Of a DNA stretch of 64,000 nucleotides, positions 12,929 through 19,002 are shown one piece after another. A program made the position numbers and the translations under genes. Under the pieces are notes generated by a model. It was given only the letters and a program-made list of their open reading frames with translations, made no database searches and was not told where the DNA came from. Numbering within the stretch: the stretch's first letter is position 1; each line of letters begins with the position of its first letter. The DNA comes from Planctomycetes bacterium GWF2_41_51 (GTDB lineage Bacteria > Planctomycetota > Phycisphaerae > Sedimentisphaerales > UBA12454), in the NCBI GenBank assembly GCA_001825665.1, contig MHXZ01000073.1, positions 1 through 64,000 of the forward strand, given 5' to 3'.

Positions 12929-12989
12929 TTTTACCTGTCTCCCGCAAATTATCCAAGTTAAACATCTCTTTTCGTGATTTAAAAATTTT

Positions 12990-13435
12990 GTCCAACGGGT
13001 CTATAAGCCGGGTTCTGTATTTGTACGGCCATTTCTCTAAGGCCGACCGTTACCGATCGGCTCAAGCAGCCTACCCGCTGAAATAACGCTCGGGCCGAGC
13101 ATTTCAGCATACTTGGCCTTGCAGACGGTGGGGTTTACCATGCCGATTCTGTCACCAGAATCGCGGTGCGCTCTTACCGCACCTTTTCACCATTGCCCGG
13201 AGGCTGTGTATTTTCTGTGGCACTTTCCCGTCCCGCACTTACTCCATATTCTCATAAAATGAATTTTAAATCAAAAGAGAATACCAAGTAAGTACGGGAG
13301 GTGGCCGTTAGCCATCACCGCGCCCTGTTCTGCCCGGACTTTCCTCCCCGCACCTGCTTCATATTCTCGTATTCATCAATTAACTGTTACAAGAATACCA
13401 AGCAGGTACGGGGCGGCCGTCCGACCCGCTGAACA
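12990..13435 (-). ncRNA. rnpB: RNase P RNA, bacterial A-type, with extended P3 and P9 arms
   Basis: Reverse complement contains GAGGAAAGTCCGGGC, GGTGAAAAGGTGCGGTAAGAGCGCACCG, GGTAAACCCCACC, CAAGGCCAAGTA, GGGTAGGCTGCTTGAGCC, ACAGAACCCGGCTTATAGACCCGTT; P1 pairs AGCGGGTC with GACCCGTT. Confidence 0.97.
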
Positions 13436-17535: not shown

Positions 17536-19002
17536 ATGCGCACAATCCATCTATCTGATGAAAAAATCAAAAAAGCAGACAATGTTTGTAAAAATTTAAA
17601 ACACCAGCGGCCAAAAACCCGAACTGATTTAGAAAATTGTGTTACTGAATATCTTAATATCCAAATCAGCGACCAGAAAATATGTCCCAATCACGATTCG
17701 CCGATGGATTATTTGTGGCACTGCTACAACAGCGACTTTAACGGCTCTGCAAACGCAGATTGCATCGTATGGGCAGGCCGAGGCGGCGGGAAAACCTATC
17801 TTGCCGCGGCCGCTACACTGCTCGATAGTATTTTCAAACCCGGCTGTAAAACACGAATCCTCGCAGGCAGCGAAAATCAGGCGCATAAAATGTTTGATAA
17901 CCTTACCAAATTTGCGCATGGTAATTTTCAGGAGTTTGTAGATGACGAAAATAAAAACAAATGCTGCTTCAGAAATGGCTCCGATGTCGAAATACTCACA
18001 CAATCAATGGCTTCGGTCAGGGGCAGTCATATTCATAAATTGCGGTGTGATGAAGTCGAGCTTTTCAAAAAGCCGATTTTCGAAGCGGCCAAATTTACAA
18101 CCAAAACCAATAATGGAATCATTGCCGCAATGGAAACTTTGAGCACGATGCATCAGCCATTTGGAATTATGCACGAGCTTGTCGATAAAGCGCAGGAAAA
18201 CGGAACAAAAATTTTCAAATGGTGCGTCTGGGAAGTAATTGAAAATTGCAGAGACCGCTCATGCAGCCAGTGTCCTTTGAATAATGATTGCCGCGGCAGA
18301 GCGAAAAACGCTGACGGCTTTTATAAAATCGATGATGTTATTGCCGCAATGAAGCGAACAAGCAGGGCGATGTTCGATTCTGAAATGCTTTGCCTGCGTC
18401 CTTCGCTGCAAAATGTTGTCTTTGCCGAATTCAATCCTGATATTCACATTGCGCCCATAGAATATGATTCCGATTTGCCTTTGTATCGCGCGATTGATTT
18501 TGGTTTTGTTAATCCGTTTGTCTGTTTGTGGATTCAGGTTGATAATAGCGGTACGGTCCGTGTCATCGATGAGTATATCCAGTCTCGAAGAACAATAGAA
18601 TCGCACGCCGATGAACTGAAAAACAGAAAACCTTTCCGGGAAGACAAAGTGACTATGACTTTTTGCGACCCCGCAGGCTCAGGCGTAAACGATGTTACAG
18701 GCACAAGTCCCGTCGGCCAGTTAAAAGCAAGAGGAATCAAAATTCGTTACAAAAGAAGCATGATTCTCGAAGGCATAGAGCTTATCAGAAGGGCACTTCA
18801 AAACGGCCAGGGCAAAAGCAATTTAATTATCAGTCCTCGCTGCGGTAGGTTGATCGAAGCGATGCAGAGTTATCATTATCCTCAATGCGGCTCGATTGAA
18901 ACTCCCCAAAAAGACGGCATCTACGACCACCCAATAGATGCTCTCCGCTATTTCTTCGTAAATTATTATAATTCGTCTCCCGCAAAAACCAGAAAATATT
19001 AG
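17536..19002 (+). CDS. Phage-type terminase large subunit, isolated from other phage genes
   Basis: Walker A WAGRGGGKTYLA, Walker B-like LRCDEVELF, nuclease motifs YRAIDFGF / FCDPAGSG / DHPIDALRYFF; cysteine cluster CRDRSCSQCPLNNDC; AAAGGAG RBS. Confidence 0.9.
   Translation: MRTIHLSDEKIKKADNVCKNLKHQRPKTRTDLENCVTEYLNIQISDQKICPNHDSPMDYLWHCYNSDFNGSANADCIVWAGRGGGKTYLAAAATLLDSIFKPGCKTRILAGSENQAHKMFDNLTKFAHGNFQEFVDDENKNKCCFRNGSDVEILTQSMASVRGSHIHKLRCDEVELFKKPIFEAAKFTTKTNNGIIAAMETLSTMHQPFGIMHELVDKAQENGTKIFKWCVWEVIENCRDRSCSQCPLNNDCRGRAKNADGFYKIDDVIAAMKRTSRAMFDSEMLCLRPSLQNVVFAEFNPDIHIAPIEYDSDLPLYRAIDFGFVNPFVCLWIQVDNSGTVRVIDEYIQSRRTIESHADELKNRKPFREDKVTMTFCDPAGSGVNDVTGTSPVGQLKARGIKIRYKRSMILEGIELIRRALQNGQGKSNLIISPRCGRLIEAMQSYHYPQCGSIETPQKDGIYDHPIDALRYFFVNYYNSSPAKTRKY

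Follow-up and report, generated by a model that had tools for sequence, protein, structure and literature searches.

The gene for the RNA of RNase P (rnpB) in Planctomycetes bacterium GWF2_41_51 carries two long hairpins of related sequence, one in the place of helix P3 and the other in that of P9. The question raised by this locus is how one ribozyme acquired two such hairpins and what keeps them paired. The first-pass annotation of the window (the whole analysed stretch, 64,000 nucleotides) had proposed that a hairpin was duplicated, or a palindromic element inserted, at two sites, with both copies maintained by pairing. Both halves of that proposal were supported when the genome of the window (G000) was compared with those of its relatives, most of them draft MAGs.

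Two homologous hairpins in one RNase P RNA

The Rfam model RNaseP_bact_a (RF00010) matched the gene over its complete length (model 1-367) at 276.3 bits (E 3.8e-89; gathering threshold 100), with the class A core conserved. The P3 and P9 hairpins shared 74% identity by BLAST (E 0.003 across the whole 4.8-Mb genome) and 71% in a global alignment. Their alignment score was 30.5, compared with a maximum of 16.0 in 20,000 pair-preserving shuffles; the two hairpins are homologous, far beyond chance. The Rfam match and the shuffles together confirmed the original description of an RNase P RNA with two related long hairpins at P3 and P9. The genome is a draft assembly, which would leave room for an assembly or binning artefact, and two GC-capped hairpins might look alike by chance. 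However, both hairpins, with identical site-specific pairs but a divergent sequence, also occur in G005, a different species of the same genus, which ruled out an assembly artefact, and none of the 20,000 shuffles reached the P3/P9 score. We regard artefact or chance as a negligible explanation.

Table 1. Positions of rnpB and its two element copies in the window
Feature	Positions	Strand	Basis
rnpB, bacterial class A RNase P RNA	12988-13432	minus	Rfam RF00010 match
Hairpin 1, palindromic element copy, entire P3, 66 nt	13347-13412	minus	model R1
Hairpin 2, palindromic element copy, entire P9, 67 nt	13232-13298	minus	model R1

The two hairpins differ by compensatory changes, as had been noted, but not by two swaps from C-G to U-A. 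Only pair 8 is of that kind (C-G in P3, U-A in P9); at pair 10, P3 has G-C and P9 has A-U. Since C-G at pair 8 (22 of 26 copies) and A-U at pair 10 (20 of 26) are the family consensus, the change at pair 8 arose in P9 and that at pair 10 in P3, one compensatory step in each hairpin. The same pair states were found in G005, and both hairpins had therefore separated before the G000 and G005 species split. The remaining mismatches were mostly G.U on the RNA strand, in agreement with the annotation, together with one G.G at pair 14 in both hairpins.

On the RNA strand the P3 hairpin alone folded at -39.7 kcal/mol and the P9 hairpin at -33.4 kcal/mol, with stems of about 24 and 21 bp and few mismatches; the opposite strand folded more weakly (-25.7 and -19.8 kcal/mol). 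In the fold of the whole gene, the probability of each hairpin was close to 1. Pairing of the 5' arm of one hairpin with the 3' arm of the other, also raised by the annotation, was feasible when the arms were taken by themselves (-30.4 and -28.8 kcal/mol). It was ruled out as the main state, in that the self-hairpins won (-40.9 and -34.0 kcal/mol) and the probability of cross-pairing in the folded RNA was about zero.

The P9 element stands where a short GNRA-capped P9 is usual. A short GNRA-like P9 was present in 81 of 102 rnpB genes, and its loop was lost in G000, G005, and G011. In class A enzymes the GNRA-like loop of P9 contacts P1, and the loss of this L9 contact in the three genomes is a testable consequence of P9 replacement.

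A mobile family of palindromic elements

The hairpins belong to a dispersed family of palindromic elements, which bears out the insertion half of the original proposal. Its members have the ends CCCGCACC...GGTGCGGG and are about 35-195 nt long, and the same ends recur across relatives in the order Sedimentisphaerales. A covariance model was built on 26 copies with a 20-pair arm, in which 69 cells had changed on both sides, compared with 22.4 in shuffles, and it found copies in 38 of the 162 genomes of the order. Against model R1, the P3 hairpin scored 56.7 bits (E 7.9e-12) and the P9 hairpin 53.3 bits (E 7.6e-11). The search for further copies in G000 itself yielded three diverged candidates (C15, C29, and C66), of which C66 was weak (E 0.04). 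A GTDB scan with one strict form of the ends, which requires an exact match of 30 bases and therefore overlooks most variants, matched nine stretches, all from planctomycete MAGs (Planctomycetota, Phycisphaerales, Anaerohalosphaeraceae). The strict pattern had no match among viral contigs, so that a viral origin is weakly disfavoured.

Dozens of copies lie elsewhere in the genomes, many of them between protein genes or at their ends, and they fall into several distinct subfamilies with unconserved loops. Copies were also found inside the 23S rRNA of G025 (L106) and G029 (L105) and inside the 16S rRNA of G150 (L102), and a copy in G039 (L257) has the same flanks as the two in 23S. We take the 23S site to be the tip of helix 25, a classical site of intervening sequences, and the 16S site to be helix 8. 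In G070 one copy was nested in another (L097:1988-2079), beside the end of a pyruvate-kinase-like reading frame.

We found a perfect 4-bp target duplication at 13 of 56 non-rnpB copies, where 1.2 were expected. One additional base pair separates the duplication from the element, as in TGAAt[..]aTGAA and TTGAc[..]gTTGA, and perfect duplications were confined to copies of the Anaerohalosphaeraceae. Ahead of a gene that by eye resembles rsmE, the junction is empty in G011 (TTTATGAGATTT) and filled in G003 and G004 (ATGAGt[element]aTGAG). Furthermore, the rnpB gene of G070 has at J15/18 a copy that shares 95% identity with one located where a protein gene ends. The duplications, the empty site, and this close match indicate that the family is mobile. 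It is also MITE-like, being short and dispersed, with terminal inverted repeats, and too short to encode a transposase. Under the strict pattern, no transposon-sized pair of these ends was present among the matches listed for eight genomes. In a search for a link to REP/RAYT systems, Y1 genes were found in all 12 genomes searched, and the strict end CCCGCACCTACTT in none of the 12 Y1 loci examined.

Several dispersed copies (L226, L229, L232, L236, L241, L245, and L255) lie at junctions of a TGA stop with an ATG start. At these sites the last base of the element and the duplicated TGAA or TGAG re-create the ATG, and both frames appear to survive. Before the rsmE-like gene (L245 and L255), the elements of G003 and G004 were 92% identical and the flanking coding DNA 64-75%; this element may be either recently re-inserted or unusually conserved.

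Hairpin replacement and probable copying within rnpB

The rnpB genes of 24 genomes held 40 copies, up to three per gene, at P3 (13), P19 (11), P12 (9), P9 (3), J15/18 (3), and P15-17 (1). Helix names were taken from the alignment to the Rfam model and the usual class A numbering, with P19 and J15/18 as positional readings. The junctions recur. At P3, CGC[element]GAGGAAAG was common to the window, G005, G006, G022, G070, G108, and G157, and TGC[element]GAGGAAAG to G025, G029, and G039; this GC[..]GAGGAAAG place of P3 is used in the unrelated families f1, f6, and f7. At P9, GGCCACCT[element]ACGGGAAAG was common to the window and G005, and G011 has GGCCATCT[element]ACGGGAAAG. Judged by these recurring junctions, the element evidently replaces the native hairpin at P3, P9, and P19.

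None of the 40 rnpB copies had a target duplication, and therefore either the element entered rnpB by another route than the simple one used at other sites or the trace of insertion has been lost. The clean junctions could mean that the element inserted in the ordinary way and that selection then favoured a clean stem, or that hairpins were exchanged directly. The latter might extend to a general habit of the element, by which it swaps hairpin for hairpin at the tips of structured RNA genes (P3, P9, P12, and P19 of RNase P RNA; 23S and 16S rRNA), by exact replacement without duplication and through, for instance, extruded DNA hairpins or an RNA-templated step. We consider this extended reading, route included, unlikely.

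When 100 elements were compared, a G.G at pair 14 was found in only six copies, all of 65-67 nt: P3 and P9 of G000 and G005, and P3 and P12 of G006. This private mismatch indicates that the P3, P9, and P12 copies of the clade came from one rnpB copy, most likely a resident of the gene in their ancestor, which upholds the duplication half of the original proposal. P9 of G000 was closest to P9 of G005, and P3 of G005 to P3 of G006. Identity within one gene reached 94% between P3 and P12 of G006, 97% between P3 and P19 of G039, and 84% between P3 and P19 of G022. In 11 of 85 genes, the similarity of P3 to P19 of the same rnpB lay above the 99th percentile for pairs taken from mismatched genomes, where 0.8 were expected (a few loci duplicate one genome). 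Hairpins with CCTGTCACTTGTTTT occupied both P3 and P19 in the two f3 genomes G027 and G031, and no other paired copy of CCTGTCACTTGTTTT was found; CCCCCTCTGCTTC occurred in P3 and P12 of G009 and at two further genomic places.

Copies in one rnpB are thus often mutual nearest relatives (as in G006, G039, and G022), and the CCTGTCACTTGTTTT hairpins follow the same pattern. These likenesses would fit pure gene conversion between rnpB helices, with the dispersed copies as escapees from rnpB instead of its source. We think this distinctly improbable, in that the dispersed copies number dozens, bear 4-bp duplications, and form several distinct subfamilies, and the rnpB copies read come from 24 genomes only. 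Moreover, the P3 place of G003 is occupied by another subfamily, nearest to the dispersed copies of G009 and G010.

Maintenance, origin, and precedents of the rnpB hairpins

Transition-type departures from Watson-Crick pairing were counted once per clade, site, and position. On the RNA strand, G.U outnumbered A.C by 45 to 12 in rnpB copies (p 1.3e-5, only indicative given that the collapsing of clades was approximate), whereas the dispersed copies were balanced (46 versus 39). The bias was absent in the few rRNA copies. The G.U excess in rnpB copies only, together with the covariation, supports the view that pairing in these copies is maintained as RNA, as the original proposal had it.

The P3 and P9 hairpins are, we believe with good confidence, copies of a short, non-autonomous, MITE-like palindromic element with CCCGCACC inverted repeats that is tolerated in rnpB, re-copied between helices, and kept paired. 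One copy would have entered rnpB in the ancestor of G000, G005, and G006, moved by some enzyme, and taken the place of a native hairpin, which was presumably lost in the process. A second helix would then have gained a copy, P9 in the line of G000 and G005 and P12 in G006, probably copied in that direction. The element would be tolerated because it is self-folding: it lengthens a peripheral helix away from the catalytic core, which stays intact. Selection against misfolding would then keep the arms paired as RNA, which would account for the compensatory pairs and the G.U bias. The copies may thus be near-neutral guests rather than adaptive parts.

The selection on pairing, the persistence of the hairpins in G000 and G005 from their shared ancestor onward, and the replacement of the GNRA-like P9 loop in these species would also be expected if the extensions were adaptive arms, a useful module used twice for stability, for protein docking, or in place of the lost L9 contact. 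But close relatives in the genus (G001 to G004) manage without these sequences, the sites differ by lineage, the loops are unconserved, and similar hairpins are found in rRNA and at gene junctions; selection on pairing is expected merely to avoid misfolding as well. An adaptive role of this kind is in our opinion very doubtful. Compatible with mobile hairpins is the further idea that they behave as intervening sequences, with RNase III cutting the long stems and leaving a fragmented mature RNase P RNA, as in fragmented 23S rRNA. The length of the stems with their few mismatches would suit such cleavage, as would the 23S copies at the presumed tip of helix 25, whereas cleavage may be impeded by the G.G mismatch and the G.U pairs. 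Fragmentation is conceivable, though we lean against it.

Among the papers searched, none bore on insertions in planctomycete RNase P RNA. Rickettsia palindromic elements (RPE) sit in M1 RNA (rnpB), tmRNA, and protein genes (review PMC2229807, citing Ogata 2002). They are likewise short, palindromic, mobile, and found inside RNA genes including that of RNase P. The likeness is drawn at the level of kind; their hosts are alphaproteobacteria, an unrelated lineage. Their presence in M1 RNA is a precedent, and what is new in the Sedimentisphaerales is the multiplicity (up to three copies in several helices of one ribozyme), the replacement of hairpins, and the spread between helices. The MITEs Correia/NEMIS, RUP, ERIC, and YPAL are below 200 bp, with terminal inverted repeats, target duplications, and RNA hairpins in transcripts (PMC2229807). 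The Sedimentisphaerales element resembles them in size and in its terminal inverted repeats, has target duplications at part of its non-rnpB sites, would likewise form hairpins in transcripts, and differs in its CCCGCACC ends, its 4-bp instead of TA duplication, and its place in structured RNA genes.

Intervening sequences in bacterial 23S and 16S rRNA are hairpin insertions at the tips of peripheral helices, and three genomes have element copies at one 23S site. Unlike those sequences, the element lies mostly in RNase P RNA and comes from a dispersed repeat family. Short tandem repeats in cyanobacterial rnpB, and double-hairpin elements in fungal mitochondrial rnpB and rRNA, also invade RNase P RNA loops but differ from it in sequence, organisms, and structure. 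An essential ribozyme appears to have been remodelled many times by mobile hairpins within one bacterial order. These events amount to repeated natural experiments that test which peripheral parts of RNase P RNA are exchangeable, and they offer a concrete route for structured RNAs to gain new helices. They also raise the question of by what means a hairpin is swapped without leaving a duplication.

Several rnpB loci had further peculiarities. A second palindromic sequence, TTTGAGATTTCAAATTTGAAATTTCAGAT and similar, was seen in P9, P12, or P3 of several Anaerohalosphaeraceae rnpB genes (L013 of G001, L036 of G005, L037 of G006, and L009 of G012). G048 (L050) had a full and a weak (62.5 bits) RNase P RNA match about 0.8 kb apart, and G052 (L052 and L053) had two strong matches on separate contigs. 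Near rnpB in the window, an open reading frame at 17536-19002 on the plus strand resembled the large subunit of a phage terminase, and a similar terminase-like sequence seems to adjoin rnpB of G001 (L013), both judged by eye.
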